Origin: Devosia sp. 67-54
Lineage (GTDB): Bacteria > Pseudomonadota > Alphaproteobacteria > Rhizobiales > Devosiaceae
Assembly (NCBI RefSeq): GCF_001899075.1
Contig: NZ_MKVA01000006.1
Coordinates: forward strand, 186,001-250,000
DNA length: 64,000 nucleotides
Direction: 5' to 3'
Positions 4,445 through 60,372 of the stretch are shown here, one piece after another. The notes beneath the pieces were generated by a model. The model made no database searches. It had not been told where the DNA came from and was given only the letters and a program-made list of their open reading frames with translations. Position 1 is the stretch's first letter, and each line of letters begins with the position of its first letter. The position numbers and the translations under genes are program-made.

Positions 4445-4583
4445 TCGTTTACTACCTCTCTTTAGAGCAATGCTCGATCGATCCTGCAACCCAATGCCCT
4501 CGTGACCAACTGCATGTGCGTCGAGGGCCCGATCGGCGATCACCCCACGAACAACTCCAACGACTTTTTCAGAAAGACAGTAA

Positions 4584-5501: not shown

Positions 5502-5549
5502 CCGTCGACCTATGCCTTATGCCCGGGTTGCATCATGGTGTCGTGGTCA

Positions 5550-9982: not shown

Positions 9983-9985
9983 GGC

Positions 9986-10252: not shown

Positions 10253-10273
10253 GGGATTTGGATTCCGCTCGGC

Positions 10274-13515: not shown

Positions 13516-13525
13516 GGTTGGCAGT

Positions 13526-26902: not shown

Positions 26903-27475
26903 TCAGCGGTCGGCCATAAACTCTACTATGAAGATCTCAGTAGGGCGCTCCGAATAGAACAGGCACGCCTCTCCTCTCTGGATCTCGGCCACCGCGTCGT
27001 GCCGCCCCAGGGTGCCGCGGCCGCACCAAGAGAACTCCAGGATGCCGTTCGACACGATCATGGTGTGATCGGCCGCGCCGTTGACCGTGATCCAACCGAT
27101 AAACTCTTCTCGGCGCAGGGTGTGACGGAAAAAACCTCGGCGCGTCATTGCGTTCAGGTCGACGGTCGGCCCGTCGATCAGTTCGCACGAGATCGCCGCT
27201 TCGCCATCGAACGAAAAGGGCGCCGTCTTCGCCGTAACGCTGAAGCTTCCCTCTGTCGCGCGCAGCAGCATCCCCTGGCCTGCCATCAGAGCGATTGTCC
27301 GGTCGACGCCGTCAAACCGCGAAAATGGCCCAGGGGCCGCCACGATAGCGATGCTGAGGCGCCAAAGAAAATCGTCGTCCAGATTCGGATCGCGATATGC
27401 CGCAATCTCTCGTGTCATTCCGCCACCGTTCCTCCAGGGAACGGTGGCATACTGGTCCGCACGCAATACCTTCAT
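26903..27475 (-). CDS. hutD: HutD-family protein of histidine utilisation
   Basis: A 190-residue cupin-fold protein of the HutD/Ves family. Typical features are PWRNGGGMTREIAAY at the start, FLWRLSIAIVAAPGPFSRFDG, DRTIALMAGQGMLL and the C-terminal EACLFYSERPTEIFIVEF. In Pseudomonas HutD is thought to set an upper limit on hut expression by binding an intermediate; its catalytic role, if any, is unknown. It is the last gene of the reverse-strand operon hutI-hutH-hutG-hutU-hutD, 27 bases after hutU. Confidence 0.92.
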   Translation of the reverse strand: MKVLRADQYATVPWRNGGGMTREIAAYRDPNLDDDFLWRLSIAIVAAPGPFSRFDGVDRTIALMAGQGMLLRATEGSFSVTAKTAPFSFDGEAAISCELIDGPTVDLNAMTRRGFFRHTLRREEFIGWITVNGAADHTMIVSNGILEFSWCGRGTLGRHDAVAEIQRGEACLFYSERPTEIFIVEFMADR

Positions 27476-27502: not shown

Positions 27503-29173
27503 TCATCCGAGAATTGCTGGCAGGTTCAGACCTCCCTCTCGTGCACACTCAATGGCGATGTCGTAGCCGGCATCGGCATGCCGCATGACGCCCGTCGCTG
27601 GATCATTCCACAGCACCCGCTGCAGACGCCGGGCTGCATCGTCGGTGCCATCGGCGCAGATGACCATGCCTGCATGCTGAGAGAAGCCCATGCCGACACC
27701 GCCGCCGTGATGCAGCGACACCCAGGTGGCGCCCGACGCCGTGTTGAGCAGCGCGTTGAGAAGCGGCCAGTCCGATACCGCGTCTGAACCGTCCCGCATC
27801 GCCTCGGTCTCGCGGTTGGGCGAGGCGACCGATCCCGAATCCAGATGGTCGCGGCCGATGACGATGGGCGCCTTGAGCTCGCCGCTGCGGACCATCTCAT
27901 TGAAGGCGAGGCCGAGCCGATGGCGATCGCCGAGGCCGACCCAGCAGATGCGGGCGGGCAAGCCCTGAAACGAGATGCGCTCGCGTGCCATGTCCAACCA
28001 GTTGTGGAGGTGACGGTTGCCGGGCGTCAGTTCCTTCACCTTGGCATCGGTCCGGTAGATGTCCTCAGGATCGCCGGATAGCGCCGCCCAGCGGAACGGA
28101 CCGATCCCGCGACAGAAGAGCGGGCGGATATAGGCCGGCACAAAGCCGGGGAAGGCGAAGGCGTTTTCGAAGCCCTCGTCCTTGGCGACCTGACGGATGT
28201 TGTTGCCGTAGTCGAGCGTGGGTACACCAGCGTTACAGAACGCCACCATAGCTTCAACATGCTCGCGCATGGAGGCGCGGGCGGCCTTTTCGACGGCCTT
28301 CGGATCGGAGACGCGCCTGTCGCGCCACTGGGCGAGAGTCCAGCCCTTGGGCAAATAGCCATTGATCGGGTCATGCGCCGAGGTCTGGTCGGTGAGGAGG
28401 TCGGGCCTGATGCCGCGTCGGAACATCTCGGGCACGAGCTCGGCAGCGTTGCCGAGCAGGCCGACAGATTTCGCCTCGCGGGCTTTCGTCCAGCGCTCGA
28501 TCATCGCCATTGCCTCGTCGAGCGTCTCGGCCTTTTCGTCCAGATAGCGGGTGCGAAGCCGGAAATCGATCGAGTCCTGATTGCATTCAATGGCGAGGCA
28601 AGAGGCGCCGGCCATGACGGCGGCGAGCGGCTGGGCGCCGCCCATGCCGCCAAGGCCACCGGTCAAAATCCATCGGCCCTTGAGGTTGCCGTCGTAGTGC
28701 TGCCGGCCCGCCTCGACGAAGGTTTCGTAGGTGCCCTGCACGATGCCCTGGGTGCCGATGTAGATCCATGAGCCTGCGGTCATCTGGCCATACATGGCCA
28801 GCCCCTTTTTATCGAGCTCGTTGAAATGGTCCCAGGTCGCCCAGTGCGGTACCAAGTTGGAATTGGCGATGAGCACACGCGGCGCGTCGGCATGGGTGCG
28901 GAACACGCCGACCGGCTTGCCGGACTGTACCAGAAGCGTCTCGTCGCCCTCGAGCTGTTCGAGCGCAGAGACGATACGGTCGAAATCCTGCCAGGTGCGC
29001 GCGGCCCGGCCAATGCCGCCATAGACCACCAGCTCATGCGGGTTCTCGGCGACATCGGGATCGAGATTGTTCATCAGCATGCGCAACGGCGCTTCGGTGA
29101 GCCAGCTTTTCGCGCGGAGCTCCGTGCCACGTGGTGCGCGGACCTCGCGCATGTTGCGGCGGGGATCGGTCAT
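27503..29173 (-). CDS. hutU: Urocanate hydratase
   Basis: A 556-residue NAD-dependent urocanase of standard length; it converts urocanate to imidazolone propionate in the cytoplasm. It begins [19 protein letters not shown]. Family blocks include [59 protein letters not shown] and [20 protein letters not shown]. The ATG overlaps the hutG stop by four bases; an upstream in-frame extension lies over hutG and is not coding. Confidence 0.97.
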
Positions 29174-29979
29174 GATGCGGCTTTCGCTAATGTGGGGGCG
29201 AGGTTCTCGATGCGCCGGAGCATGTCGCCCAGGTGAACGCGGAGGCGGTCGGCCTTGGCGCGGTCGAGCGCGAAGGGCGGCGCTTCCGCGACGAGGTGGG
29301 TGTCCTGCGCCAGCTCCAGCTGGATCGCGTGCACGCCTTGCTCCGGATGCCCGTATTCGCGGGTCGTCCAGCCGCCCTTGAAGCGGCCGTTGAGGACAAA
29401 GGTATAGCCGGCGGCGGCCATCGCGACCGCTACGGCCGCCGCCTCGATCGACAGCGAGGAGGAGACGCCGCCGACGGTCCCGATGTTGAGGTCCGGAAGC
29501 TTGCCGGCGAAGAGGAACGGGATGTTGGAGCGGATGGAGTGGCAATCGAAGACGATGGCGACGCCATGCTCCGCCTTCACCCGCGCAATCTCGTCCGACA
29601 AGGCGGCGTGATAGGGCGCATGGAAGAGCTTCAACCGGCGCGCGGTTTCCGCCGCGTCGGGTTCCTGGCCCTCTTTCCAGATCGGCTTGCCGTCGAAATC
29701 CGTCTTGGGCACGAGACCGGTGGTGTTTTGGCCCGGATAGAGGCTCACATCGTCCGAACCGCGGTTTACGTCAATGACGTAGCGGTGAGTGAGTGCGCGG
29801 AGGGTCGAGGCGCCGGGCAAGAGATCCGCGTAGAGCTCATGGATGTGCCAGTCCGTGTCGGCCAGCAGCCGCCCGGTGTCATTCAACCGCTCCGCCAGCT
29901 CATCGGGGACATATGTCCCAGTGTGCGGGAAGCCGAGGATCACTGGGGAGGTGCCGCGATGAAGCTCGAAGAAGGCCAT
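29170..29979 (-). CDS. hutG: N-formylglutamate deformylase
   Basis: A 269-residue N-formylglutamate amidohydrolase, the last step of the five-step route: N-formylglutamate to glutamate and formate. It shows [20 protein letters not shown] near the start, [35 protein letters not shown] and [20 protein letters not shown], with the histidines and acids of the metal site. It overlaps hutU by four bases and ends one base before the hutH stop region, inside the operon. Confidence 0.96.
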
Positions 29980-29980
29980 C

Positions 29981-31516
29981 TCAGCGCACCAGTCCTGGCA
30001 AGATGCCCGCGCTCACCGAACGAACCAACGAACCGTCGGCAACAAGGCCAACCGCCGTTTCGATGTCCGTCGCCATGTAACGATCGACGTCGAGCTCCCG
30101 GACCACAGAACGCACCGCCCTCCGCGCTTTCTCCAATTCACGCCCGGTCTCGAGGGGCGCTCTGCAGTCGATACCCTGCGTTGCGGTCAGCGCCTCGATG
30201 CCGATGATGCCGAAGAGGTTGTCGGTCATCTGCAGCAAGCGGCGGGCGCCGTGGCAGGCCATCGAAACGTGATCTTCCTGATTGGCCGACGTTGGCGTCG
30301 AGTCGACCGAAGCCGGATGCGCCATCTGCTTATTCTCGCTCATCAGCGCCGCCGAGGTGACCTCCGCGATCATCAAGCCAGAGTTGAGCCCTGGTTTCTT
30401 GGCCAGGAATGCCGGCAGGCCGAACGACAGCGCCGGGTCAACGAGAAGTGCGATCCTGCGCTGAGCAATCGCCCCGATCTCGCAGATCGCGATGGCGATC
30501 TGATCCGCCGCAAAAGCTACGGGCTCGGCGTGGAAGTTTCCGCCGGACACCACGCTGTCGTCAGGCAACACCAGGGGATTATCCGTGACCGCGTTGGCCT
30601 CGATTTCGAGAGTGTGCGCTGCGCTCCGCAACAGATCGAGGCAGGCGCCGTCGACTTGTGGCTGACACCGGATGCAATACGGATCCTGCACCCTTTCGTC
30701 GCCCTCGATATGGCTCTGACGGATGGCCGAGCCTTCGAGCAGAACGCGCAGCGCAGCAGCAGCGTCAATCTGGCCCTTATGCCCGCGTAGGATATGGATG
30801 TCAGGATGGAACGGCGTTGGCGAACCCATCGCGGCATCGGTCGACATCGCGCCGGTGACCAACGCCGCCTGCGCCGCGCGGTGCGCGCGAAACAAACCGG
30901 CAAGCGCCAACGCGGTTGACGCCTGGGTGCCATTGATCAGCGCCAGCCCTTCCTTAGCTGCCAATACCACTGGACGCAGTCCCGCACTCTTGAGTGCGTC
31001 CGCGCCGCTCAGACGTTTTCCTCCGAACGTCGCCTCGCCCGCGCCCATGAGCACGGCCGCCATGTGCGCCAACGGAGCAAGATCCCCCGAAGCGCCCACG
31101 GATCCCTTTTCGGGGATCACCGGCAGCACGCCCCAAGCGAGCATATCCTCGATCAACCGGATCAATTCAACCCGAACGCCGGATGCCCCTCGACCCAGAG
31201 AGACCAACTTCAACGACATGATGAGGCGAACGATATTCTCGGGCAGTGACTGACCGACGCCGCAGCAGTGAGAAAGGATGAGGTTTCGCTGCAGCGTTAC
31301 GACGTCTGCAGCGTCGATCCTGATCGAGGCGAGTTTGCCAAATCCGGTGTTCACGCCGTAGACGGGAACATCTCCAAAGGCAATTGCCGCGATCCGTTCA
31401 GCTCCCCGTTGGACGGCGTCGTTTGCCACGGGGTCCAACACTGCTGGAACGCCATCCCAATAGATTCTTGATAGGGTCTCAAGCGAGACTGCACCTGGAG
31501 TGAGCGTGACACTCAT
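29981..31516 (-). CDS. hutH: Histidine ammonia-lyase
   Basis: A 511-residue lyase that deaminates histidine to urocanate, the entry step. The Ala-Ser-Gly that forms the MIO cofactor is in [20 protein letters not shown]. Other family blocks are [52 protein letters not shown] and [20 protein letters not shown]. The start is the ATG at 31516 ([12 protein letters not shown]), overlapping the hutI stop by four bases. Confidence 0.97.
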
Positions 31517-32847: not shown

Positions 32848-34194
32848 ATGACTAAGCTCTTCGCTTCAGCTGCGCTCTTGCCGCGCGGCCTCGCTCGCGA
32901 TGTCATGATCGAGATCGATGGGCCGCGGATCAACAAGGTCGACGTCGGTGCGACCGCCGCCGGTGCGGATGAGCGACACGCTTTGATTGCGGCGGGCGTG
33001 GGGAACCTCCACAGCCACGCTTTCCAACGGGCAATGGCCGGCCTGGCTGAGCAAAAGGGCTCAAGCGACGACAGCTTCTGGAGCTGGCGGTCGACCATGT
33101 ACAAGTTCGCGCTCTCGATGACCCCGGACGATGTTGAGGCGGTTGCCGCGCAACTTTACATCGAGATGCTCGAGGCGGGATTCACGCGTGTCGGGGAGTT
33201 TCACTACCTGCATCACAACGAGGCCGGCGTCCCTTACGCCAATATCGCCGAGATGGCCGAGCGGATCGCCGCCGCGAGCGTCGAGGCTGGCATCGGGTTG
33301 ACCTTGCTCCCCGTCTTCTATGCACATTCGGGATTTGGGCCGACGCCGCCAACAGACGGCCAGCGCCGGTTTGTCAATGATCGCGATCGCTTTTCTTCCC
33401 TCATGGATGCGAGCCGCCAAATCGTCGACCGAACCCCAAGTGCCTGCATTGGCGTTGCACCACACAGTCTCCGAGCCGCGACCATTCCCGAGATTCGGGA
33501 TGTGGTCGCCCTCGCTCAAGACGGGCCAATCCACATTCATGTCGCTGAGCAAATGCTCGAGGTGGAGGATTGCCTTCATGCAACGGGCGCACGCCCTGTC
33601 GAATTGCTCCTCTCCAATGTCGACGTGACCAGCAATTGGTGCCTGATCCACGCCACGCACCTGAGCGACATCGAACTGAACGCACTTGCCGCGACCGGCG
33701 CTGTTGCTGGTCTCTGCCCCATCACCGAGGCCAATCTGGGTGATGGCATTTTTCGAGGCGCCGACTTTCGCCGGGCGGGCGGCCGATATGGGGTCGGCAG
33801 CGATTCCAATGTCGAGATTTCCCTGGCTGGGGAGCTGCGGCTTCTGGAATACAGCCAGCGCCTGGCGCAGCGGGCCCGCAACGTCCTTGCACCAGCCGGG
33901 GGGTCGACGGGGCAAGCACTATTGGATGACGCGTCGGCCGGCGCAGGACAGGCTCTCGGCGTCGCAACGGGGATTGCCGAGGGCATGCCTGCCGATCTCG
34001 TTGCGCTCAACCGCACCGGGGCCGAATACCTTCCACACGAGAGCCTGCTGGATGCTTTCGTTTTTGGTTCCGGGGTCGAGATCGCCGAGGTTTGGGTTGC
34101 CGGCCGCAAGCGGGTATCAGGCGGGCGCCACGTGAACCGGGACATCATTCGCAGCCGCTTCGACAAGGTGATGCTCGGTCTGGTCCGGCGGTGA
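32848..34194 (+). CDS. hutF: Formimidoylglutamate deiminase
   Basis: A 448-residue amidohydrolase that releases ammonia from formiminoglutamate to give N-formylglutamate, the substrate of HutG. It begins MTKLFASAALLPRGLARDV. The metal site is in VGNLHSHAFQRAMAGLAEQ, followed by DSFWSWRSTMYKFALSMTPD, GVAPHSLRAA, HIHVAEQMLEVEDC and RYGVGSDSNVEISLAGELR. The start is ATG 32848 with GGAG at 32838-32841. The gene is divergent from hutI and followed by hutC. Confidence 0.96.
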   Translation: MTKLFASAALLPRGLARDVMIEIDGPRINKVDVGATAAGADERHALIAAGVGNLHSHAFQRAMAGLAEQKGSSDDSFWSWRSTMYKFALSMTPDDVEAVAAQLYIEMLEAGFTRVGEFHYLHHNEAGVPYANIAEMAERIAAASVEAGIGLTLLPVFYAHSGFGPTPPTDGQRRFVNDRDRFSSLMDASRQIVDRTPSACIGVAPHSLRAATIPEIRDVVALAQDGPIHIHVAEQMLEVEDCLHATGARPVELLLSNVDVTSNWCLIHATHLSDIELNALAATGAVAGLCPITEANLGDGIFRGADFRRAGGRYGVGSDSNVEISLAGELRLLEYSQRLAQRARNVLAPAGGSTGQALLDDASAGAGQALGVATGIAEGMPADLVALNRTGAEYLPHESLLDAFVFGSGVEIAEVWVAGRKRVSGGRHVNRDIIRSRFDKVMLGLVRR

Positions 34195-34262
34195 ACTTCG
34201 CTCTATCAGTTCTTGATCGGAGAGCTAGCGGAGCCTGGCGAGGCGTGACCAAGGTTGAAGCA

Positions 34263-34985
34263 ATGCGGCGCCAGCGCAGCGCAACCACATTGCACGAAAA
34301 GATCGTCGGGGAACTTGAGCGCAAGATCGTCAGCGGCGAATGGCCAGTCGGCCACCGGATCCCCAACGAGGTGGACTTTGCCAGCCAGTACGGCGTCTCG
34401 CGAGCCACGGTCAACAAAGTTCTCACTCAGCTCGCTCGAGCCGGCCTTATCGAGCGTATCAGGCGCGGCGGGAGCTTTGTAACCCAACCGCACACCCAAT
34501 CGGCAGTTCTCGAAATTGGCGATATTCGACGCGAGGTCGAATCGCTGAATGTGCCCTATGGCTTTGCCGTTCTAACGCGCGAACGCCGGAAGGCGAGCCG
34601 CACCGATACTATGCTGCTGGACATTGATGTTGGAACGCCGATCCTGAACGTAACATGCGTTCACACGGCCGCGGGCAAGCCATTCTGCCTCGAACAGCGG
34701 GTGATTAACCTTAGCGCCGTTCCGGAAGCGGTTTCTGCCGATTTCGAACACACGTCACCTTCGCAATGGCTGCTCAGCCACATCCCTTGGACGTCAGCAC
34801 AGCACAGTATCCACGCCGCGCCCGCGTCCGCCACGGACGCCAAACTCCTTAAGATCGATGAAGGAATGGCATGTCTCATTGTGGAGCGCCGTACCTGGGG
34901 TACGCCCGGTTCGGTAACGCATGTCCGCCTGACCTACCCCGGTGATAGCCACACGCTGGTGGCAACCTTCACGCCATCATCTTAG
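34263..34985 (+). CDS. hutC: HutC, GntR-family repressor of histidine utilisation
   Basis: A 240-residue GntR/HutC regulator. The winged helix is LHEKIVGELERKIVSGEWPV then SQYGVSRATVNKVLTQLARA, and the UTRA effector domain covers roughly residues 90-235 (CVHTAAGKPFCLEQRVINLS and RTWGTPGSVTHVRLTYPG). HutC proteins are released from DNA by urocanate. ATG 34263 is chosen because the upstream extension overlaps hutF; GTG 34245 is also possible. It is co-directional with hutF, 68 bases after it. Confidence 0.93.
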   Translation: MRRQRSATTLHEKIVGELERKIVSGEWPVGHRIPNEVDFASQYGVSRATVNKVLTQLARAGLIERIRRGGSFVTQPHTQSAVLEIGDIRREVESLNVPYGFAVLTRERRKASRTDTMLLDIDVGTPILNVTCVHTAAGKPFCLEQRVINLSAVPEAVSADFEHTSPSQWLLSHIPWTSAQHSIHAAPASATDAKLLKIDEGMACLIVERRTWGTPGSVTHVRLTYPGDSHTLVATFTPSS

Positions 34986-34993
34986 CTTGAGAG

Positions 34994-35884
34994 CTAGAGC
35001 TGCTTTCCAAGGCTTGTCGCCAGGGAAAAGAAGGCTCTTGCAGGCTGCGACAGCTCTTCGAACGGACGGCTTAGCAGACCGATGGGACTAACCGCCTTTT
35101 CGTCGTCTATTCGAACGAAGACGGGGGCGGGATCGACATGATGTTTGGTCCCCATCTCCGCGAGGATGCTCACGCCAACGCCCAGACCGACCAGCCGGCA
35201 CGCGGTCGCGTACTCGGTTCCAGAACAGATGATGTTGGGCTGGAACGATTGCCTCGCACAAAGGTGGAGCACCAGATTGTGAAATGGTTCGCCGCGATTG
35301 CTGATGAGGATGAATGGCTCGTCGGCGAGTTGTCTCAGGCTGACCATGGCCTCGCTTGCAAGCGGATGCGACCCTGGGACTGCCGCCATGAGCGCTTCGT
35401 CCCGCAGGACTGTGATCGATAGCTTCGTCTTGTCGTGTGGCAAACGGATTAGCGCCACGTCGATCTCATGGCGCTCGGCGGCATCCAGCAATTGCGGTGT
35501 CCGGTGCTCAACGATCTGAAGATCGATATTGGGGTAGAGTTCCCGATACTTCACGACTAGGAGCGGCAAAAGGTGGTAGGCAAGAGATCCTGAGGCGCCC
35601 ACCCTTACCACGCCCTTCTCGAGGCCTGTTCGAGCCCGGATCTCTTTGGCCGCATCGTCTGTCTGAAGCAGGATGCTGCGCGCTCTCGGCAGGAAAGCCT
35701 CGCCGAGATCAGTCAGCCGAACGAGTCGACTGCTCCTCTGAAAGAGCTCGCCACCCAACTCATCCTCAAGTCGCTTGATCTGATGCGAAAGCGGCGGCTG
35801 CGAAAGATGCAGCGTCTTTGCGGCTCGCGTGAAGCTCAACTGCTCCGCCACCGCGAGAAAATAGCGCAATTGAAAGAGCTCCAT
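34994..35884 (-). CDS. LysR-family regulator divergent from the opine-like genes
   Basis: A 296-residue LysR-type regulator. The helix-turn-helix is QLRYFLAVAEQLSFTRAAKT then LHLSQPPLSHQIKRLEDELG, and the effector domain includes VVRVGASGSLAYHLLPLLVV. The start is ATG 35884 with GGGGAG just before. Its 3' end is nine bases from the hutC stop (convergent). It is divergent from the gene at 36072, and a 14-base palindrome lies between them. It is a natural candidate to control the downstream cyclophilin-like pair and transporter. Confidence 0.9.
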   Translation of the reverse strand: MELFQLRYFLAVAEQLSFTRAAKTLHLSQPPLSHQIKRLEDELGGELFQRSSRLVRLTDLGEAFLPRARSILLQTDDAAKEIRARTGLEKGVVRVGASGSLAYHLLPLLVVKYRELYPNIDLQIVEHRTPQLLDAAERHEIDVALIRLPHDKTKLSITVLRDEALMAAVPGSHPLASEAMVSLRQLADEPFILISNRGEPFHNLVLHLCARQSFQPNIICSGTEYATACRLVGLGVGVSILAEMGTKHHVDPAPVFVRIDDEKAVSPIGLLSRPFEELSQPARAFFSLATSLGKQL

Positions 35885-35952
35885 CGATTCTCCCCAGCAG
35901 CGGCACCGGTTCACAGTTGCCGGGCCGCGACCCGGGCAGCGCCCATCCATTC

Positions 35953-35966
35953 TCTATCGCGATAGA
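35953..35966. promoter_or_regulatory. Palindrome in the LysR/opine-gene intergenic space
   Basis: TCTATCGCGATAGA is a perfect 14-base palindrome, 69 bases before the LysR start and 105 before the gene at 36072. LysR regulators usually bind an interrupted dyad near their own start, so this may be the operator, but the compact dyad without a spacer is not the classic T-N11-A form. Support is positional only. Confidence 0.4.
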
Positions 35967-36071: not shown

Positions 36072-36590
36072 ATGCACTGGTCGGAAATAAAGAAGACCAT
36101 CGACGCGGAGGTCAAACATATCTGGTCGGACGAGAGCGAAGATATAACACGACTTCGCATGGGAATTGCTCACGCGCAGGCCGGTTCCTTCGGACAGTAC
36201 TTCTCGACGCTGGTTTTTGCTCTGACCTATACCCTCGCCCTTGGCGAACACGTCGTTTATGGACTTGTGAAGGGCGCCGACAATGAGAAAGTATCGCTGG
36301 AGGCTTTGAAGGAACTTACGAGGGAACACTTCGTCGTTGGGTTCCGCGCGCCGATGTTCGTCGGCTATGTCCTCGCGCCCAAAGCCGAAACCTTTGCCGA
36401 CGAAATCGTCGCGGCTCTCGACGGCGTCACGACGCGCGAGGACTTCAAGGCTCTTCTGGGTAGCTACTTCACCTACCAGAACATCCTTCACTGGTGGCTG
36501 CACGTCTATTTCCCTTGGTCGCTGGGTGCCGTTTTCGAGCAGGTCGACGCCACGCGCGTCGCCACGCTGCAGCGCCTCATCAAGAACTAA
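36072..36590 (+). CDS. Small helical protein, possible cucumopine-synthase-type helical bundle
   Basis: A 172-residue, almost wholly helical protein without signal peptide or membrane segment. It opens MHWSEIKKTIDAEVKHIWSD and contains FGQYFSTLVFALTYTLALGE, FRAPMFVGYVLAPKAETFAD and YQNILHWWLHVYFPW. It is followed after 24 bases by a cyclophilin-like DUF3830-type protein. In cucumopine/mikimopine synthases a cyclophilin-like domain is joined to a helical bundle, so the two genes look like a split version. The match is from memory of the fold order and neighbourhood, not from a search. GGAG at 36060 supports ATG 36072. Substrate unknown. Confidence 0.5.
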   Translation: MHWSEIKKTIDAEVKHIWSDESEDITRLRMGIAHAQAGSFGQYFSTLVFALTYTLALGEHVVYGLVKGADNEKVSLEALKELTREHFVVGFRAPMFVGYVLAPKAETFADEIVAALDGVTTREDFKALLGSYFTYQNILHWWLHVYFPWSLGAVFEQVDATRVATLQRLIKN

Positions 36591-36614
36591 GACTCGAACA
36601 AGGAATTCAGAGCC

Positions 36615-37028
36615 ATGGCCAAGACACTGCTCATTGAATGGAAAGAGTTGGGGTGCAAGGCGCATATCCAGCTGCTTTGGGACAAGGCGCCGAAACTCTG
36701 CCAGGCCGTCGTTGACTGTCTGCCGCTCCGCTCGATCAGCTGGCACTCGGTGATCTCGGGCGACAATATCGGTTTCGCTCTCCCCGTCGTGTGCACGACT
36801 TTCGAAAACCCGCAGCCGCGCACGCGGGGCAATATGTACATCTACGCGAACGGGCAGCTCGGCATCGTCCCCTATGGGGACTTCTCCGAGCCGGGCGACG
36901 TCAACACCTTCGGCCGTATCGATGAGAAAGACATGGCCGACGTGACGAAAGCCGGCCAGACCGTCGCCGAGTTCTTCCGCAACGGGCCCGGCCGCCCGAT
37001 TTTCGCCGACGTCAGCGTCGTCGAGTGA
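36615..37028 (+). CDS. Cyclophilin-like DUF3830-type protein, possible histidine-opine enzyme
   Basis: A 137-residue beta-rich protein of the cyclophilin-like DUF3830 type: LLIEWKELGCKAHIQLLWDK at the start, PKLCQAVVDCLPLRSISWHS, then NMYIYANGQLGIVPYGDFSE and the end VNTFGRIDEKDMADVTKAGQ. Cucumopine and mikimopine synthases, which condense histidine with 2-oxoglutarate, have a catalytic domain of this fold. The gene sits between a helical-bundle gene and an opine-type importer, next to a full hut locus. A role in making or cleaving a histidine conjugate is therefore likely but unproven. Confidence 0.6.
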   Translation: MAKTLLIEWKELGCKAHIQLLWDKAPKLCQAVVDCLPLRSISWHSVISGDNIGFALPVVCTTFENPQPRTRGNMYIYANGQLGIVPYGDFSEPGDVNTFGRIDEKDMADVTKAGQTVAEFFRNGPGRPIFADVSVVE

Positions 37029-37194
37029 CGCGAACAAGATGAGGCACAACCGTTACAGTACGGCCAGCTAACGAAACTTGGGTGGTGAACGGATGGACGA
37101 CTGGCCTGAAGTGCTTCGAGATAGAGCGTCCACTCCCCGGTCATCCCGGTCGAAATCGTCTCGCCCTCTTCACCAGCGATAGAGGGGGGTTGAA

Positions 37195-37914
37195 TTGGAT
37201 CTCGCCAGGACGTTCGAACTCGTTGGCTTCGGCCCCGATGGGTGGGGCGCGATCCTCTTGGCCGGGACGGCAACCACCCTTGCCGCCGCATTCTGTGGAC
37301 TTCTGCTTTCCTTCGTCCTTGGAGCCTTGGGAGCCAGCGCGAAAGTCGCTGGCGGTCCCGCAGCGCGCGCCGCCGCGGAGACTTACACGACGATCCTGCG
37401 TGGCGTGCCGGAACTGCTCGTCATCTTCCTGTTCTACTTCGGCAGCAGCTCAGTCCTTGGCGCCATCGCCGCGCTTTTCCAATACCAGGGATTCATCGCT
37501 CTGCCGGGGTTTCTCGCCGGCGTGCTCGCCATCGGCGTGGTTGAAGGCGCGGTGATGGTCGAGGTGCTACGTGGCGCCTTTCTTGCCGTGAAACCCGGAG
37601 AGATCGAAGCCGCGAAGGCCTGCGGCATGAACACCTTCCTGCGCTTTCGTCGCATCATCGCACCGCTGACTCTTCGTCACGCCCTGCCGGGCATTGGAAA
37701 CGTCTGGATTGGCCTGTTGAAGGGCTCGTCACTTCTATCGGCAACTGGCGTCGCCGAGCTGATGAGACAGACCCAGGTTGCCGCCGGCTCAACCAGATTG
37801 CCCTTCGATTTCTATGTGGCGGCCGGCGCGATCTACATCGTCATAACGGTCAGTTCCGGTGTGGTCTTCCAGCTGGCCGAACGACACTACTCGCGCGGCG
37901 TTGCGAGGCCATGA
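37195..37914 (+). CDS. Amino acid/opine ABC transporter permease (HisQ/OccQ type)
   Basis: A 239-residue inner-membrane permease of the polar amino acid family. Hydrophobic segments include AAFCGLLLSFVLGALGAS and LAGVLAIGVVEGAVMVEVLR. The cytoplasmic EAA loop with GEIEAAKACGMNTFLRFRRI contacts the ATPase. The start is TTG 37195 with AGAGGGGGG before it. Its stop overlaps the next permease (ATGA). A 166-base gap separates it from the cyclophilin-like gene, with no gene inside. Confidence 0.92.
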   Translation: MDLARTFELVGFGPDGWGAILLAGTATTLAAAFCGLLLSFVLGALGASAKVAGGPAARAAAETYTTILRGVPELLVIFLFYFGSSSVLGAIAALFQYQGFIALPGFLAGVLAIGVVEGAVMVEVLRGAFLAVKPGEIEAAKACGMNTFLRFRRIIAPLTLRHALPGIGNVWIGLLKGSSLLSATGVAELMRQTQVAAGSTRLPFDFYVAAGAIYIVITVSSGVVFQLAERHYSRGVARP

Positions 37915-38648
37915 TGAACCTCGAATTCATCGGCCAAACGCTTGTCACGCTTCTTGCCGGCATTCCAATCACGCTGGAACTCGCGGCTCTTGCCATAGCG
38001 GGAGGCGCGCTGCTGGGCTTTGCGATCGCGCTCATGCGCCTGTCGCAGCATCCGTTCCTCTATGTGAGCGCCTGGCTCTATGTGCAGATCATCCGGAGCA
38101 CGCCGCTTCTCGTGCTCCTTTTCCTGATCTACTACGGCCTTGGTCAGTTCAGCGCTCTCCGATCCAGTTTTCTATGGCCAGTATTGAAACAGGCTTACTG
38201 GTGCGCCGTCATCGCTCTTGTCATCAACGGGTCCGCCTTCGCGGCTGAGATCTTCCGCGGTGGTCTGCTTTCCGTTGGTCGCAAGGAGGTCGAAGCCGCG
38301 CGTGCCTGCGGCATGTCCGGAATACTCCTCTATCGACGGATTGTGTTCCCGCTCGCCATCCGCCAGGCGCTACCTGCCTACAGCAACGAAATGGTCGCGA
38401 TGGTGAAGGCGACTTCGCTTGCCTCCCTCGTCACGCTTATGGACGTCACAGGCATTGCCGCTTCGATTGCCTCGAGCACCTATCAACCGATCCCGGTCTT
38501 CGTTGCGGCTGGTGCGATCTATCTCCTCATCAACACACTGCTGACTCGCGCCGTGAGGGCGCTCGAGTATCGCCTGACGCCGCACCTGCGGCCGGCGCAG
38601 TACGCAACAGCGTCAGCCGTGACCGAAGCTGGTGTTACCCCGACATGA
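37911..38648 (+). CDS. Amino acid/opine ABC transporter permease (HisM/OccM type)
   Basis: A 245-residue second permease of the same importer, with membrane segments such as TLLAGIPITLELAALAIAGG and LLVLLFLIYYGLGQF. Its EAA loop is KEVEAARACGMSGILLYRRI. It pairs with the preceding permease as HisQ does with HisM. Both ends overlap neighbouring genes by four bases, so the operon is tightly coupled. The final 20 residues are not conserved. Confidence 0.92.
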   Translation: MMNLEFIGQTLVTLLAGIPITLELAALAIAGGALLGFAIALMRLSQHPFLYVSAWLYVQIIRSTPLLVLLFLIYYGLGQFSALRSSFLWPVLKQAYWCAVIALVINGSAFAAEIFRGGLLSVGRKEVEAARACGMSGILLYRRIVFPLAIRQALPAYSNEMVAMVKATSLASLVTLMDVTGIAASIASSTYQPIPVFVAAGAIYLLINTLLTRAVRALEYRLTPHLRPAQYATASAVTEAGVTPT

Positions 38649-39418
38649 CGACGGCTGTGCGCCTGCAAAACATCCACAAGCGGTTTGGTGCCCTCGAAGT
38701 ACTGCGCGGCATCACGCTCGAGGCTCAGGAGGGCGAGGTCCTCTCACTGCTCGGATCGTCCGGCTCGGGAAAATCGACGCTTCTCAGATGCATCAACATG
38801 CTCGAGATTCCAAACGACGGCGACGTCTGGGTGGCCGGCGAGGCCGTCAAGTTTCGCGCTGGTCGGCAGGGTCAAAGCAGGACAGTCGACACCGCGCAGA
38901 TCGACCGGCTCCGATCCCGCATTGGAATGGTCTTCCAAAGCTTCAACTTGTGGCCGCACCTGACCATCCTTGAGAACGTCATCGAGGCGCCAATTCACGT
39001 TCTCAAGCGACCCCGATCCGAGTGCATCCAGGAAGCGCGGGATCTGCTCGAACGCGTCGGCATCGGTGACAAGGCGCAGTACTATCCAGCCCATCTTTCC
39101 GGGGGCCAGCAGCAGCGCGCCGCTATCGCGCGCGCCCTGGCAATGCATCCCAACCTCATGTTGTTCGATGAGCCGACCTCGGCTCTCGATCCCGAACTCG
39201 TGGGCGGCGTGCTCCGCGTCATTCGCTCCCTGGCAGAGGAAGGACGGACGATGCTCGTCGTCACCCACGAAATGGCCTTCGCCCGTGACGTCTCCAGTCG
39301 GGTCATCTTTCTGCACAAGGGCGAAGTCGAAGCCGACGGCCCGCCGGAGGACGTCTTTACCAACAGCAGCTCACCGCACTTCCAGCAGTTTTTGGGGCGG
39401 GAGGCGAGAACTGAATAG
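38645..39418 (+). CDS. Amino acid/opine ABC transporter ATP-binding protein (HisP/OccP type)
   Basis: A 257-residue ATPase of the polar amino acid uptake family. Walker A is GSSGSGKS (about residues 37-44), the Q-loop is MVFQSFNLWPHLT, the signature LSGGQQQRAAIARALA, Walker B LMLFDEPTSALDPE and the switch region VVTHEMAFA. The 12-base insertion region around FRAGRQGQSRTVD is like HisP/OccP. It is coupled to the second permease (ATGA) and followed by the binding protein. Confidence 0.94.
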   Translation: MTTAVRLQNIHKRFGALEVLRGITLEAQEGEVLSLLGSSGSGKSTLLRCINMLEIPNDGDVWVAGEAVKFRAGRQGQSRTVDTAQIDRLRSRIGMVFQSFNLWPHLTILENVIEAPIHVLKRPRSECIQEARDLLERVGIGDKAQYYPAHLSGGQQQRAAIARALAMHPNLMLFDEPTSALDPELVGGVLRVIRSLAEEGRTMLVVTHEMAFARDVSSRVIFLHKGEVEADGPPEDVFTNSSSPHFQQFLGREARTE

Positions 39419-39439
39419 TCAACCAGAAGGGGAATATCG

Positions 39440-40285
39440 ATGAAGATGACGACGATCGTCGCAACCGCGTTGGTTGCGATCTTGGCCGCGAACCCGGCGT
39501 TCGCTGAAGACAAGAAATGGACCGAGGTGCGGATCGGCACCGAGGGTGACTACGCACCCTGGAACTTCACCAAGCCCGACGGTACGATCGCCGGCTTCGA
39601 GGTTGACCTGTTCAACGACCTCTGCCAGCGCATGGGAGTCAAGTGCACCTTCATGGCGCAGGACTTCGACAGCATGATTCCGGCTCTCAACGCTGGTAAG
39701 TTCGACGCCATCGTCGACTCGCTCACCATAACGGACAAGCGCAAGGAGGTGATCGACTTCTCGATCCCCTATGGAACCCTGTGCTACACGTTCGCCACGT
39801 CGGACGGCGACATCGAGACCAAGCTGCCGCCCGATGACACGATCATTTCCCTCGACAACGAGGCAGCAACGAATGCTGCCCTCGACAAGATCAAGGCGGC
39901 CCTCACCGACAAGACGATCGGGACGCTCGCCGGCGGCGGATCAGTTGCGTTCGTCAACACGTACCTCCAGGGAACCACACTGCTCCGCCAGTACAAGACC
40001 CCGGACGCACGCGACCTCGACTTCACCGCCGGTCGGCTGGATGTGATCATCGGAACGAAGGACCAACTGACCGACCTGGCCAAGAAGCCCGGCAATGACT
40101 CCATCAAGGTCGTCGGTCCATGTTTCCAGGGTGGCATCCTCGGGCAGGGCGTCGGCGTCGGCCTGCGTAAAGCTGACACCGATCTCAAAGCTCTCTTCGA
40201 CAAAGCCATCGCCGAGGCCAAAGCGGATGGGACGATCAAGAAGCTCTCGACCCCCGTATTCGGCGTCGACCTGACACCCCAATGA
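39440..40285 (+). CDS. Periplasmic binding protein of the HisJ/OccT/NocT type
   Basis: A 281-residue family 3 solute-binding protein. The signal peptide is TIVATALVAILAANPAFA. The ligand region shows RIGTEGDYAPWNFTKPDGTI, GFEVDLFNDLCQRMGVKC and LTITDKRKEVIDFSIPYG. The C-terminus, with GVGLRKADTDLKALFDKAIA, ADGTIKKLS and the end VDLTPQ, is very like octopine and nopaline binding proteins as I remember them. Together with two permeases and an ATPase it completes an importer for an opine or basic amino acid; given the hut neighbours, a histidine conjugate or histidine is the best guess. Confidence 0.88.
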   Translation: MKMTTIVATALVAILAANPAFAEDKKWTEVRIGTEGDYAPWNFTKPDGTIAGFEVDLFNDLCQRMGVKCTFMAQDFDSMIPALNAGKFDAIVDSLTITDKRKEVIDFSIPYGTLCYTFATSDGDIETKLPPDDTIISLDNEAATNAALDKIKAALTDKTIGTLAGGGSVAFVNTYLQGTTLLRQYKTPDARDLDFTAGRLDVIIGTKDQLTDLAKKPGNDSIKVVGPCFQGGILGQGVGVGLRKADTDLKALFDKAIAEAKADGTIKKLSTPVFGVDLTPQ

Positions 40286-49772: not shown

Positions 49773-49985
49773 GAGTCCGGAATAGCGCCGTGGCCTGAGA
49801 AGCGCAAACTGAACTCTGCCCTCGCATACAACGCCGTTCTGAAGGCGCGAGGGACCGTCACCGGATGGCCAGGACGCCATGTCGGCCTGGGGGCGCCAAG
49901 CGCCTAGAGCCCGGTCGCCTAGCCACGCGCCCAACCCTCCCCGGAAACCCCCTGCTCCCAACGTCGGAAGGTGCTAGGATGGAGC

Positions 49986-52900
49986 ATGTACTTTGACAAT
50001 TCTATTCTTCATCTTTCGGCGTCAGACCTCATTGGATACCTCAACTGCCGGCATCTTACCGGTCTCGATCTTGCTGTTGCGAGAGGAGAACGTGCGAAAC
50101 CGAGCGGCTGGAATCCTGAGCTAGAGCTGCTGCGCGAACGCGGTGAGCGCCATGAGGCCGCTTATGTCGAGCATCTAGGGGCAACAGGTCATACGATCGT
50201 TGTCATCCCTGGCCGCGATCTCGACGAGCCGGCGCGGCTCGCCACGATAAGGGCGATGCGGGATGGAACTGGGATCATTGTTCAGGCGGCCCTGAGCGAC
50301 GGCGTTTGGGGTGGGCGCGCGGACGTTTTGAAGCGCGTCGAGACGCCGAGTGGTCTCGGCGAATGGTCCTATGAGGTAATCGACACAAAGCTTGCTCGTG
50401 AGACCAAGGGTGGAACGGTCCTCCAACTGTGCCTCTACTCGGACCTGGTCGCGGCAATACAGGGAAAGCGGCCTGAGTATGCGTATGTTGTGGCTCCCTA
50501 TCGGGATTTCGTCCCTGAGCCGTTTCGGCTCGACGACTACGCTGCCTACGCAAGGAAGGTAAGACAGGCGCTAGTTGATGAGGTCGCAGCGCCCTCCGAT
50601 CCCTATCCGCTGCCAGTCGCCCATTGCGACAATTGCCGCTGGCGCGACAACTGCGACCAGCGGCGGCGCAACGACGATCATTTGTCGCTGGTTGCCGGCA
50701 TGAGCTCAATGCACACCAACGAGTTCGAGCTTCAGGGCATCCAGACGACGGCACGGCTGGCGGCCGAGCCTCTGCCACTCACTTGGAAGCCCATCCATGG
50801 CGCTGCGCCCTCCTATGAGCGGCTGCGGGAACAGGCGCGGATACAGGTGGCGGGACGCGCGGCCGGCGAGCTGGTCTGGGAGGCGATGCCGATCGAAACA
50901 GGTCTTGGTCTCGGCAAGCTGCCTCCGCCATCTCAAGGGGACATCTATTTCGATCTCGAGGGTGATCCCTTCGCAGCGCAAGGCGGCCGCGAATACCTGT
51001 TTGGCTACGCGGTGCGAAACGGGGCCGGTGTCCTTGAGTACACAGGTCAATGGGCGCTGACTCCAGCGGATGAGAAGGCGGCGTTCCAGCAATTCGTGGA
51101 TATGGTTCAGGCGCGCCGGCAGAAATTTCCCGATCTCCATGTCTACCACTACGCGCCTTACGAGCCTGGCGCTCTGAAGCGCCTGATGGGCCGGTACGCG
51201 ACGCGTGAAGAAGAAATCGATGACATGCTGCGGCATGGCATCTTTGTGGATCTCTTTGCCGTCGTCCGACGCGCCGTCCGCGCCAGTGTGGAGAGCTACT
51301 CGATCAAAAAGATAGAGGGCCTTTACGAGTTCGCACGGGCCGTCAGCATGCCCGATGCGAACCGCGCCCTCTTCGCGGTCCAGGCGGCAATCGAAACGGG
51401 TGGCCGCAACGACGTTACCGAGGATGTTCGCGGAGTTGTCGAAGGATACAACGCCGATGATTGCCTCTCCGTCGCGGCCCTCCAGGTTTGGCTGGAGCGC
51501 GTTCGCGCCGGTCTGATCGCGCAGGGACAGGCGATCCCGCGGCCGACTCCATCTGAAGGCGCGGCGCCTGCCAATGTTACAGCGTGGCAAGCGCGGGTCG
51601 AGGTCGCTATGCAGCGCCTGCTCGCGGGGTTGCCGCCGGACGCCACCGGTTGGAACGACGAGCAGAATGCCGCCTGGGTTTTGGCCCATATCCTTGACTG
51701 GCACCGGCGAGAGAACAAAGCCAAGTGGTGGGAGTTCTATCGGCTTTGCGATGTTCCCGAGGAAGATCTGATCGACGAGCGTGCTGCGCTGGTCGGTCTT
51801 CAGTTTGAAGGCGCGACGGGGGGCACCCCTAAGGCGCCGACCCACCGCTACAGCTACCCGGCGCAGGACGCGGACATTCGCGACCATGACCTTTATCTGC
51901 CGGGCGGTCGGAAGCTCGGAACTCTTGAGGACTGGGATTCCGAGACCCGCAGCATCGAGATCAAGAAGCGCAGCGACACTGCGGCGGTCCACCCGACGGC
52001 CCTGTTCGGCAACACGGCAATCTCGATGCAGGCGCAAGCAGAGTCGCTGATGCGCACGGCCGACTTCGTGCTTGCGCGTGGTTGGAATAACGGGAAAATC
52101 GCCAAGCTTGCCCGGGACCTTCTAATGCGTCGTGTGCCCGATATCGGTGACGCGCCACTGCGTCTGGCCAACGAAACGCCGGTGGCTTCTGCGGTCAGGA
52201 TCGCCCCGCTGTTGCAAGGCGTCCTACCAATTCAAGGACCGCCTGGCGCTGGCAAGACACATGTCGGAGCGCAGATGATCGGCGCGCTTATCAAGGCCGG
52301 CAAAACGATTGGTGTTACTGCAAATAGCCATAAGGTCATCTTGAATCTCGTCGAGGCGGCGATCGACGCCGCCGCCCAGCAAGGCGTAGATATCTCGTGC
52401 ATCCACAAGTCGCGCGAGGCGAGGGCCCCGCAGCCGCATCTAACGTTCGCGACGGACGACAAGGTGCTGTTGTCGGCGATCGGCAAGACGGCGAATCTCA
52501 TCTCAGGGACCTCGTGGTTTTGGTCGCCGCCAACCGCAACGGGCGCGGTCGACGTTTTGTTTGTCGACGAAGCGGCCCAGATGTCGCTCGCCAATGTTTT
52601 AGCGCTCAGTCAGGGCGCACGCGGGCTCGTTCTGATTGGTGACCCGCGCCAGTTGGAGCAACCGATCCAGGGATCGCATCCGGAGGGCACCGAAATCTCG
52701 GCGCTTGACTACGTGCTGAACGGTCGCCAGACGATCGGTGAGGATAAAGGCTTGTTTCTCGACAAGACCTGGCGCCTGCACCCCGACATCGCCGCCTTTA
52801 CCTCGGAGCTCTTCTATGAAGGTCGTCTCGAGGCCCGCACTGAGAGCGGACAACAGCGCATCGTCGTCGAGGGACCCTTCGCAGGTTCGGGCCTTCGCTA

Positions 52901-53383
52901 CGTTCCAGTCGAACATGCTGGCAGTCAGACGACGAGCCCCGAAGAAGCTGACGTTGCTGTAGGGATAATCCGGTCGCTGCTCGATCAGAAGGCGTATTGG
53001 ATTGACGCCAAGGGTGACGAGCACGACCTGACCCTTGAAGACATCATAGTGATCGCTCCGTACAACGCACAGGTTGCGGAGATCGAGCGACGGCTGCCTG
53101 GCGTGATCTGCGGTACAGTTATCGCTTCCAGGGCCAAGAGGCGGCGATCGTCATCTATTCGGTGACGAGCTCGAGCGCCGCCGACGCGCTGCATGGGATG
53201 GAGTTCATCTATAGCCCAAACCGTCTCAACGTCGCGACCTCGCGCGCGCGGTGCCTTTGCGTGATGCTGGCGAGCCCGCAGATTTTTGAGCCCGGGTGTC
53301 GGACCCCTACTCAGATGCATCTGGCGAACGGCTATTGCCGCTATCAGGAGTTCGCCATCCGGACGGAGTGGCCGCCGTTGTGA
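49986..53383 (+). pseudogene. TM0106-type RecB-like nuclease with RNase H-like and SF1 helicase domains, split by a one-base frameshift
   Basis: About 1130 residues if the frame is repaired. An N-terminal Cas4/RecB-like nuclease shows EVIDTKLARETKGGTVLQLC and an iron-sulphur-like cysteine set (CDNCRWRDNC plus an early cysteine). Next come a DEDD-type RNase H-like domain (IYFDLEGDPFAAQGG) and an SF1B helicase with Walker A QGPPGAGKT near residue 750 and Walker B FVDEAAQMS. At 53120/53121 a base is missing: the frame ends at 53165, while the next frame reads RFQGQEAAIVIYS and LNVATSRAR to the TGA at 53383. Either an inactivated gene or a sequence error. The stop overlaps the exonuclease start (GTGA). 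Confidence 0.85.
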
Positions 53384-54768
53384 GTTTCACTATTTACGAT
53401 CTCGAGACGACGGGTCTCAATCCGCACTACGATCAGGTCGTCCAGTTTGGCGCCGTCCGCTTCAACGCCCGCCTCGAGATCATCGATCGCTTTCAGATTA
53501 GGTCGCGCCTCCAGCCACACATCATCCCGTCCCCTGGTGCCTTGGCTGTAACCGACACACCAATCGCAGAGCTTTTGGGCGATGCGCACCCTACTCACTT
53601 CGAGATGATGCGCGAGATCAACCGGGTCCTGCGCAGTTGGGGGGCCTCGGTTTTCATCGGCTACAACTCCTTGCGCTTCGACGAAGAGTTCCTGCGGCAC
53701 GCGTTCTATCAGACGCTCCACGATCCCTACCTCACCAACAAAGAGAACAACACGCGGGGAGATGCGCTTCGGCTGATCCGCGCCGCGGTGCATTTCCGAC
53801 CAGACCTGATCTCGACGCCGATCGGGCCGGACGGCGTCCCATCGACAAAGCTTACGGATGTTGCCGCGGCATTGGGCTTCAAAGTCGAGCGCGGGCATGA
53901 GGCCATGATTGACGTCGAGATGACGGCGTTCGTTTGCCAGCAGATCGCGCGTCGCGCGCCGGAGGTCTGGGCGCGGTTTCTACAGTTTACGACGAAGGCC
54001 GCGACGGTCGAGTTCATGCAAACCGAAGAAGCGTTCGTGCTCTTCCATCCAACTGGGGAAGGTCGCGGTTGCTATGTGGTGAGCTTCTTCGGCCGGCACC
54101 CGAAGATTGCCAACTTCCACTACTGCCTGGATCTCTCGAATGATCTCGACGCATTGCGCTCTATGACGCAGGAGGAGCTCAATGCGGCGCTCGCGGGCTC
54201 CAAAATTGTAAGGAAGGTGAAGGCCAACGCCGCTCCGGTTCTCTTCCCGGTCTATGAAGGACTCGAGAAGGCATTCAGCCCGCTCACGGAAGACGAAGTT
54301 AGTCGCAAAGCCGCGAGCCTTCGCGCCGACACTGAATTCGTTGAACGTCTGATGGCCGCTGCCGTAGCAAATGAGAGGGTTTACCCGCGGTCGGACAACG
54401 TCGAGGACCAGCTCTACCAGGAGGGTATGGGCTTTTTTGATGACCAGGATAGCCACATCATGGGCGAATTCCACAAAGCGGATTGGCCGGAGCGTCCGGG
54501 GTTTATCGGCCAGCTGCGGGACAGCCGTTTGAAGCGCCTTGCCCAGCGGCAGATCTACTTCGAGCGTCCGGATCTCTTGTCAGCGACCATCCGGAGCGCA
54601 CTTGGCCAGGCAATCAGGGAGCGCAGGTTCGCGGAAGGCGAAGTGCCATGGCGAACGCTGGCGGCGGCGCGTCGGGAATTGGATGAGGTCCGTGATCCGG
54701 ACGCGCGGGGTTTGGAGGGGTATTCCGGGTATCTCGAGCACCTGGGCAAAGCTGATGGTCAAGGGTAA
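53380..54768 (+). CDS. Exonuclease I-like 3'-5' exonuclease (SbcB/DnaQ family)
   Basis: A 462-residue exodeoxyribonuclease I homologue of near-normal length. The DEDDh residues are D7 and E9 in YDLETTGLNP, D101 in IGYNSLRFDEEF, and H173 and D178 in ERGHEAMIDVEMTA. The C-terminal part, with SKIVRKVKANAAPVLFPVYE and ERPDLLSATIRSALGQAI, matches the ExoI SH3-like and C-terminal domains in position. The GTG start at 53380 overlaps the stop of the nuclease-helicase gene; an apparent earlier start lies inside that gene. It is coupled to the DUF4238 gene by a 14-base overlap. Confidence 0.88.
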   Translation: MSFTIYDLETTGLNPHYDQVVQFGAVRFNARLEIIDRFQIRSRLQPHIIPSPGALAVTDTPIAELLGDAHPTHFEMMREINRVLRSWGASVFIGYNSLRFDEEFLRHAFYQTLHDPYLTNKENNTRGDALRLIRAAVHFRPDLISTPIGPDGVPSTKLTDVAAALGFKVERGHEAMIDVEMTAFVCQQIARRAPEVWARFLQFTTKAATVEFMQTEEAFVLFHPTGEGRGCYVVSFFGRHPKIANFHYCLDLSNDLDALRSMTQEELNAALAGSKIVRKVKANAAPVLFPVYEGLEKAFSPLTEDEVSRKAASLRADTEFVERLMAAAVANERVYPRSDNVEDQLYQEGMGFFDDQDSHIMGEFHKADWPERPGFIGQLRDSRLKRLAQRQIYFERPDLLSATIRSALGQAIRERRFAEGEVPWRTLAAARRELDEVRDPDARGLEGYSGYLEHLGKADGQG

Positions 54769-55630: not shown

Positions 55631-55648
55631 CCCTCTTCCCTAGTGCCT

Positions 55649-56647: not shown

Positions 56648-56838
56648 CTTTTGATTTTGAACCAAACTTGCACCACAGGCGAGTGTGCAAAACCCCGTCG
56701 GGTCGACCGACGGTGGCGAGCTATTTCATTGGACCGTCTCGACGGTCCAGGAAGAAGAGTCTGCTGCTACCGTACCGAAATCGTCGAGATTGCGGTGCCG
56801 CTCGTGGATTGCCCTTGGCACTAGTGGCGGCGTCTCGT

Positions 56839-60358: not shown

Positions 60359-60372
60359 AATCTCTTAAATTC

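Follow-up and report, generated by a model that had tools for sequence, protein, structure and literature searches.

A split Pictet-Spenglerase-type enzyme beside the hut genes of a conjugative element in Devosia sp. 67-54: a candidate cassette for the breakdown of histidine-derived opines

What might two genes that resemble the halves of an opine-forming enzyme be doing beside a complete set of genes for the breakdown of histidine? The question is raised by a 64,000-nt stretch of Devosia sp. 67-54 (contig NZ_MKVA01000006.1, positions 186,001-250,000; the whole stretch is called the window here, and all coordinates are the window's), in which positions 36072-40285 hold six genes on the + strand, i.e., a helical-bundle gene, a DUF3830 gene, two permeases, an ATPase, and a family-3 binding protein, with histidine utilization (hut) genes upstream. 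We consider it fairly probable that this cargo serves as a cassette for breaking down a tetrahydroimidazopyridine-type conjugate in which histidine is joined to an oxoacid (cucumopine, mikimopine, or a close relative), and which would be cleaved by a reverse Pictet-Spengler reaction. The bundle and DUF3830-type genes lie where an earlier reading of this DNA, the original prediction, had placed them, and the six genes are as follows.

36072..36590, + strand: helical-bundle half (Cucumopine_C), 172 amino acids; PF18631 at 1.8e-28, 100 bits, cut-off 27
36615..37028, + strand: cyclophilin-like DUF3830 half, 137 amino acids; PF12903 at 28.9 bits, cut-off 26
37195..37914, + strand: importer permease 1, BPD_transp_1; identity 69% to Sodalis pHS1, 67% to G191, 45% to pRi1724
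37911..38648, + strand: importer permease 2, BPD_transp_1; identity 63% to Sodalis pHS1, 65% to G191, 47% to pRi1724
38645..39418, + strand: importer ATPase, ABC_tran; identity 72% to G191, 58% to Sodalis pHS1, 52% to pRi1724
39440..40285, + strand: periplasmic binding protein of the mikimopine-plasmid type, SBP_bac_3; identity 62-63% to Sodalis/G191, 46% to pRi1724

Judged by their sequences, the bundle and DUF3830 proteins are the two halves of a Pictet-Spenglerase-type enzyme, whose activity is predicted. In sequence searches of the PDB, the bundle matched McbB (3x27, 7.6e-16), 9uwa (1.7e-9), and KslB (9k0a and 9ns6, 1.3e-8), and the DUF3830 protein matched the McbB/KslB family at 7e-4 to 5e-3; the five best distinct sequences were the same for either half (McbB 3x27, KslB 9k0a and 9ns6, and the related 9uwa and 9uwb), and the few remaining matches stood at E 0.27 or worse. 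No NCBI model matched either protein at 0.001. When 83 family rows were compared together with McbB and KslB (85 rows), 14 positions proved near-universal, i.e., alike in at least 79 rows, and the window pair keeps 13 of these, with all seven in the DUF3830 half (rows alike: Glu 81, His 83, Pro 85, Gly 85, Tyr 81, Leu 81, and a second Pro 82) and six of the seven in the bundle (Gly 80, Gly 82, Gln 79, Trp 84, Pro 82, and Trp 83). The Glu of the YGxxxE motif, present in 81 of the 85 rows, the window's included, is one which we take, in both number and role, to be Glu97 of McbB.

A structure model was made with both halves as one chain, the stop being read as Q, from 40 aligned sequences, as a stand-in for the two-chain pair. 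It reached a mean predicted local distance difference test (pLDDT) score of 87.1 and a predicted template modelling (pTM) score of 0.75, and Foldseek placed KslB as its best match (E 7.3e-17), with McbB at 1.9e-6 and 1.9 Å over 158 columns; the whole-chain root-mean-square deviation from KslB was 13-17 Å, so that the modelled placing of the domains is unreliable and the interface is no evidence for the true one. Kinship to the opine synthases, which the original prediction had put forward as a refutable claim, was found by sequence, profile, and fold comparison. McbB and KslB have the same two domains as the window pair and the same conserved Glu, His, Gln, and Trp positions, whereas they are single polypeptides with tryptophan as substrate and the window has two genes; according to the PDB titles, both structures hold tryptophan, and that of KslB contains the product of L-Trp and 2-oxoglutarate. 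As split forms account for 67 of the 83 rows, a single chain is no defining trait of the wider family. The two window genes are in one frame, with a TAA at 36588-36590 and 24 bases before the DUF3830 gene, and a ribosome-binding-like AAGGA can be seen by eye ahead of the DUF3830 ATG. A single gene, read through or frameshifted, was considered and rejected, given that each of the genes is complete and that split pairs are usual.

The binding protein bears on the ligand. Its best PDB relatives are the octopine (3e-58) and nopaline (1e-55) binding proteins, in line with the four-gene importer of this type that had been predicted, and, among the loci first compared, all of the importer parts are closest to those of Sodalis pHS1 (58-69%), G191 (63-72%), and pRi1724 (45-52%). 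Relatives of the binding protein occur in 1960 plasmid records. A contact table for OccJ and NocT is given in passages of PMC5740067. Of its 16 positions, the window protein has 10 in common with the pRi1724 protein and 9-10 with the other enzyme-linked proteins, as against 4 with OccJ, 3 with NocT, and 4-5 with five fetched proteins whose importers, in the stretches seen, have no link to the enzyme; the four annotated stretches of these five have M20-type or abgB-type amidohydrolase genes and no annotated bundle or DUF3830 gene. A tree of 17 binding proteins puts the ten that are linked to the enzyme (those of the window and pRi1724 included) on one side of a branch with support of 100/100, the other side consisting of the five importers, from plasmids with no enzyme annotated in the stretch seen, together with OccJ and NocT. 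All ten enzyme-linked pockets have Asp 88, Tyr 111, Leu 109, and Gly 162 (OccJ numbering), and nine have Leu 159; the window pocket departs from the nine others in having T at 91 and G at 163. The window protein is about 20% identical to those of the cucumopine-type plasmids. Given the sharing of the pocket and the 100/100 group, the sequences favour a mikimopine-like class of ligand, rather than arginine opines or plain amino acids.

Upstream of the bundle gene, the - strand carries hutD, U, G, H, and I and the + strand hutF and hutC; a LysR gene found there is divergent from the bundle gene. The complete hutDUGHI-F-C set that had been reported beforehand is indeed there, with HutU, G, H, I, F, and C all six exceeding the NCBI equivalog cut-offs and HutD passing Pfam.

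26903..27475, - strand: HutD; PF05962 at 144 bits
27503..29176, - strand: HutU, urocanate hydratase; TIGR01228 at 958 bits, cut-off 375
29170..29979, - strand: HutG, N-formylglutamate deformylase; TIGR02017 at 347 bits, cut-off 279
29981..31516, - strand: HutH, histidine ammonia-lyase; TIGR01225 at 706 bits, cut-off 539; the single PF00221 match of the genome
31513..32745, - strand: HutI, imidazolonepropionase; TIGR01224 at 434 bits, cut-off 298
32848..34194, + strand: HutF, formimidoylglutamate deiminase; NF006683 at 662 bits, cut-off 654
34257..34985, + strand: HutC repressor; TIGR02018 at 278 bits, cut-off 220
34994..35887, - strand: LysR-type regulator, LysR_substrate and HTH_1; divergent from the bundle gene
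35953..35966, no strand: perfect 14-base palindrome TCTATCGCGATAGA, a candidate operator between the LysR and bundle genes

The palindrome occurs once in the window at up to 2 mismatches, against 0.17 expected, and at least one occurrence was found in 16 of 100 shuffles; it was rejected as a common hut operator because of this single occurrence. Conjugation genes are found at 5.8-20.4 kb (TrbI, a CagX/TrbG protein, TrbL, a TraG P-loop ATPase, a T2SSE ATPase, a type IV secretion system coupling protein, and a DUF3363 relaxase), and RepA, DUF736, Toprim, and ParB, with a weak DUF932 match, are distributed over the two sides of the cargo. Since Trb/TraG/relaxase, RepA, DUF736, Toprim, and ParB genes flank it, the cargo is supported as sitting on a conjugative element, integrated or plasmid, which sustains the conjugative part of the integrative and conjugative element named in the original prediction. 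The only hutH of the genome, the sole PF00221 match, is thus carried by a conjugative element. The other side of the element, at 49971-63234, has RNase H/helicase, exonuclease, DEAD helicase, BrxC/D-like ATPase, and TerB-domain genes, and resembles a defence island.

The association of the enzyme with hut genes recurs elsewhere. A tblastn search of plasmids with the bundle gave 20 records, and in 84,980 species genomes scanned, 47 distinct bundle loci were found, every one with a DUF3830 gene alongside; at least one core hut gene (hutH, U, I, F, or G) is present in 18 of the 47, from Alpha-, Beta-, and Gammaproteobacteria and Actinomycetota, a figure that is a lower bound, given that some contigs are short. 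As a control, hut genes were found in 1 of 15 PF12903 loci without the bundle, in genomes of the order to which the window belongs. Among 17 further stretches, which include four repeats of loci among the 47, eight have a hut match, two of these only a hutH-like one at 41%. The bundle-first loci of Enterobacterales have no hut genes in the sequence examined. Hydantoinase/oxoprolinase genes are listed in 6 of the 18 hut-linked loci.

Some single loci deserve separate mention. In Microbacterium, Amnibacterium, and Actinotalea (L071, L072, L073, L077, and L092), two bundle-DUF3830 pairs precede hutH, with hutU/F/I in four of the five, and a DUF3830 gene without a detected bundle adjoins hutC, hutH, and hutU in L128 (G580). 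On Paraburkholderia phenoliruptrix pSYMBR3459 (L012), a fused bundle-DUF3830 gene directly follows hisG and the gene for the regulatory subunit of ATP phosphoribosyltransferase, and may be a biosynthetic version. Finally, the genome of the window has a second DUF3830 and bundle pair, itself a divergent one, on the - strand at 2358-13781 of the stretch L134 (G000:C9:234001-254000), the bundle scoring 37 bits by profile with no Pfam match. This pair stands between two hydantoinase A/B gene pairs, next to an enzyme dependent on pyridoxal phosphate (PLP) that looks like D-cysteine desulfhydrase; rhodanese-like and M20-peptidase-like genes are there too (all of these judged by eye), and the whole is perhaps a pathway for cysteine-carbonyl (thiazolidine) adducts.

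Among the known systems, the mikimopine plasmid pRi1724 has, like the window, a split DUF3830/bundle pair, probably riorf22/riorf23, and the same kind of four-gene importer (binding protein 46%, other parts 45-52%; pocket 10/16). The gene order is DUF3830-bundle there and bundle-DUF3830 in the window, and the 24.5 kb read of pRi1724 has no hut genes, in contrast to the complete set of the window; a hydantoinase/oxoprolinase pair stands beside the pRi1724 enzyme, whereas the window cargo has none, and rol genes adjoin the pRi1724 region. In passages of PMC8554961 and PMC10745273, pRi2659 and pTiAg57 appear as cucumopine and octopine/cucumopine types. These two plasmids and pTiLBA1190 have Pictet-Spenglerase homologs amid hutD-U-G-I, hutF, hutH, hutC, and a family-3 importer, as in the window, and the 16 kb read of pAvF25c shows the same enzyme arrangement as the three, together with hutI, F, H, and C; several genes of the pTiAg57 region are in pieces. 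Unlike the window, with its one split pair, the cucumopine-type regions have two fused divergent paralogs (DUF3830-bundle and bundle-DUF3830), an extra spermidine-type importer, and hydantoinase/oxoprolinase genes. In these regions (L038, L043, L014, and L015), the two paralogs with their swapped domain orders lie side by side, and one idea is that both are kept for opposite stereochemistry. Sodalis praecaptivus pHS1, whose importer is the closest (binding protein 62% identical), and chromosomal relatives in Paraburkholderia, Sodalis, Martelella, Trinickia, and Pseudomonas share with the window the split pair and a nearby hutH, and differ from it in having DUF3830 first, an RpiR regulator, and hydantoinase/oxoprolinase genes.

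The hydantoinase/oxoprolinase genes of pRi2659 are nearest to caprolactamase models, below the cut-off, and such plasmid enzymes may, to judge from this likeness, open the lactam of the opine. Their lack in the cargo suggests that an open form of the conjugate is imported or that the ligand forms no lactam. The locus is taken to work like a cucumopine/mikimopine catabolic region and is not classed as a member of that group, because the hydantoinase/oxoprolinase A/B genes are missing. The proposal of histidine-opine catabolism is upheld in part, in its kinship and in its context (cucumopine/mikimopine plasmids and unrelated chromosomes), and falls short in the pair of the plasmid versions that the cargo does not have.

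The bundle family (Cucumopine_C) is rare, being found in 3 of 136 genomes at the level of the taxonomic family, 13 of 397 at that of the order, and 4 of 385 at that of the class (two of the four over the cut-off), tallies that each count this genome, and this rarity argues that the locus is not a product of chance. Trees of 83 bundle and 83 DUF3830 rows show strong clustering by gene order and fusion state. In the DUF3830 tree, a branch with support 96/92 separates the window, along with the DUF3830-first and fused forms, from the other bundle-first split forms, so that its own bundle-first order, going by this placement, probably arose independently; the bundle tree leaves the placement open. 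A bundle-first split order together with a mikimopine-type importer is unique to the window among the surveyed loci. When 19 genomes of the genus were searched at the DNA level with the locus, all 19 matched; the matches listed, the window aside, fall where the query holds the ATPase (about 2790-3511) or, in two rows, the binding protein (3651-3881), with none in the bundle or DUF3830 genes. One genome of the genus (G091) has, by profile, its own distant bundle/DUF3830 pair. No viral relatives of either gene were confirmed in two scans of viral contigs.

How such a cassette might operate can be sketched from the chemistry of the Pictet-Spengler family. The binding protein and the ATP-binding cassette (ABC) importer would bring in the conjugate, and the bundle and DUF3830 proteins would associate into one active site of the Pictet-Spenglerase type, with the conjugate bound between the bundle and the cyclophilin-like domain. 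Protonation of the imidazole carbon with the help of the conserved Glu would allow the ring to open to an iminium, the hydrolysis of which would give histidine and the oxoacid, 2-oxoglutarate being the oxoacid of cucumopine. HutH-U-I-F-G would then convert the histidine to glutamate, formate, and ammonia, and the irreversible HutH step, by removing histidine, would pull the cleavage forward; regulation probably falls to HutC and the divergent LysR protein. Catabolism is favoured because an importer and breakdown genes are present and no exporter was found among the cargo genes identified, and catabolic enzymes homologous to T-DNA opine synthases have a precedent in agropine.

Several findings weigh against this reading. 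We know of no relative that runs in reverse, the direction that we infer here, and the family includes members acting on other amines. The window enzyme is a lone long branch (2.0 and 2.1 changes per site in the two trees), its bundle reaches no more than 36% identity with the relatives found and has Ser where 83 of the 85 rows have Pro, and the Pfam score of the DUF3830 half is barely above the cut-off (28.9 vs 26 bits). No hydantoinase/oxoprolinase (PF01968) was found in the window, and three hydantoinase A genes lie elsewhere in the genome. Overall identity is higher to some binding proteins of rhizobia and enterobacteria (48-52%), which have no such enzyme nearby, than to that of pRi1724 (46%); the five fetched ones were tried as better kin than pRi1724 and rejected, all five being without the shared pocket. 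No core hut gene is seen in 29 of the 47 bundle loci in the sequence examined, nor are hut genes in two further bundle loci among the control stretches (L134 and L136), and the comparison of 18/47 with 1/15 (one-sided Fisher p = 0.018) draws on a small control set, on loci that are not independent, and on two samples that differ in kind. In a Pantoea locus (L078), the neighbours are by eye glutamine-synthetase-like, Rieske-type, and luciferase-like genes, and, given this example with quite different genes, the enzyme family probably serves more than one pathway and is not tied to histidine.

Four other explanations have to be set against a cassette for cucumopine, mikimopine, or a close relative. 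The nearest keeps the catabolic mechanism and changes the conjugate, which would join histidine to another carbonyl (pyruvate, glyoxylate, or formaldehyde) in a product unable to close a lactam; we hold it to be quite possible, if somewhat short of an even chance, and, as it is a sub-case of the favoured reading, the two assessments overlap. It accords with a cargo that has no hydantoinase/oxoprolinase, where the plasmid regions have one (that of pRi2659, nearest to caprolactamase, fits lactam opening), and 12 of the 18 hut-linked loci likewise list none, so that a lactam-free version may be common; the separate lineage of the enzyme and some pocket positions (T 91, G 163) that set this protein apart from the other nine linked to the enzyme go with it as well. 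However, 10 of the 16 pocket positions are in common with the pRi1724 protein, and the three hydantoinase A genes elsewhere in the genome, none of which adjoins the cargo, also tell against it. A decayed or non-functional remnant of a fused enzyme, on the other hand, is very improbable: two genes in the same frame with one TAA between them and the loss of one near-universal Pro might be read in that way, but both frames are complete, the DUF3830 gene has its own start and ribosome-binding-like site, 13 of the 14 near-universal residues are still present, and most rows of the family are split pairs (67 of 83).

The pair might also be biosynthetic, making an alkaloid, signal, or metal chelator for secretion by the condensation of histidine with an oxoacid, with the hut genes incidental. 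As far as we know, the family members that have been tested condense, McbB and KslB both working in the synthetic direction, and histidine biosynthesis genes adjoin the fused homolog of pSYMBR3459; against this, which makes the idea improbable to our minds, the cargo combines an importer with the complete histidine-degrading set, and the same grouping recurs on opine plasmids, whose hosts use the opine. A catabolic region for cucumopine is named as such in passages of PMC10745273, which cites Hooykaas et al. 2022 on plasmid pAtAg67. We give just as little credence to an action on another amine (tryptophan, cysteine, or some other) beside hut genes that adjoin by coincidence: the tryptophan of the KslB and McbB structures (PDB titles), the 29 of 47 loci without hut in the sequence examined, and the second pair of this genome, beside a PLP enzyme and hydantoinases, speak for it, whereas the hut association is repeated across Pseudomonadota and Actinomycetota and the importer is of the kind found on a histidine-opine plasmid.

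Part of this ground is already known: the plasmid regions have been sequenced, and a cucumopine-catabolic region has been reported (Hooykaas et al. 2022, as cited in PMC10745273, to go by passages of the latter). In the passages found in the open-access literature, no paper ties a Pictet-Spenglerase homolog to hut genes or to reverse opine breakdown, and none gives an account of the chromosomal hut-linked loci; Hooykaas et al. 2022 may well include some of this. A wider and more doubtful proposal is that the reverse Pictet-Spengler cleavage of histidine conjugates is a general mobile nutrient route of Pseudomonadota and Actinomycetota, in which the cucumopine/mikimopine systems of Agrobacterium would be one co-opted branch, and the element of the window an independent enzyme lineage (bundle first, with no lactam-opening enzyme) that acts on a conjugate of histidine yet to be described as a natural product.

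Relatives of the enzymes that make cucumopine and mikimopine in transformed plants are present in many bacteria, often beside genes for histidine breakdown, and the window offers a compact test system, with two small proteins, one binding protein, and the only hutH of its genome. If such relatives do catalyse the reverse reaction, this would be, as far as we are aware, a new catabolic use of the Pictet-Spenglerase fold; it would account for the opening of cucumopine and mikimopine and would point to a wider scavenging of histidine adducts as the origin of opine metabolism.

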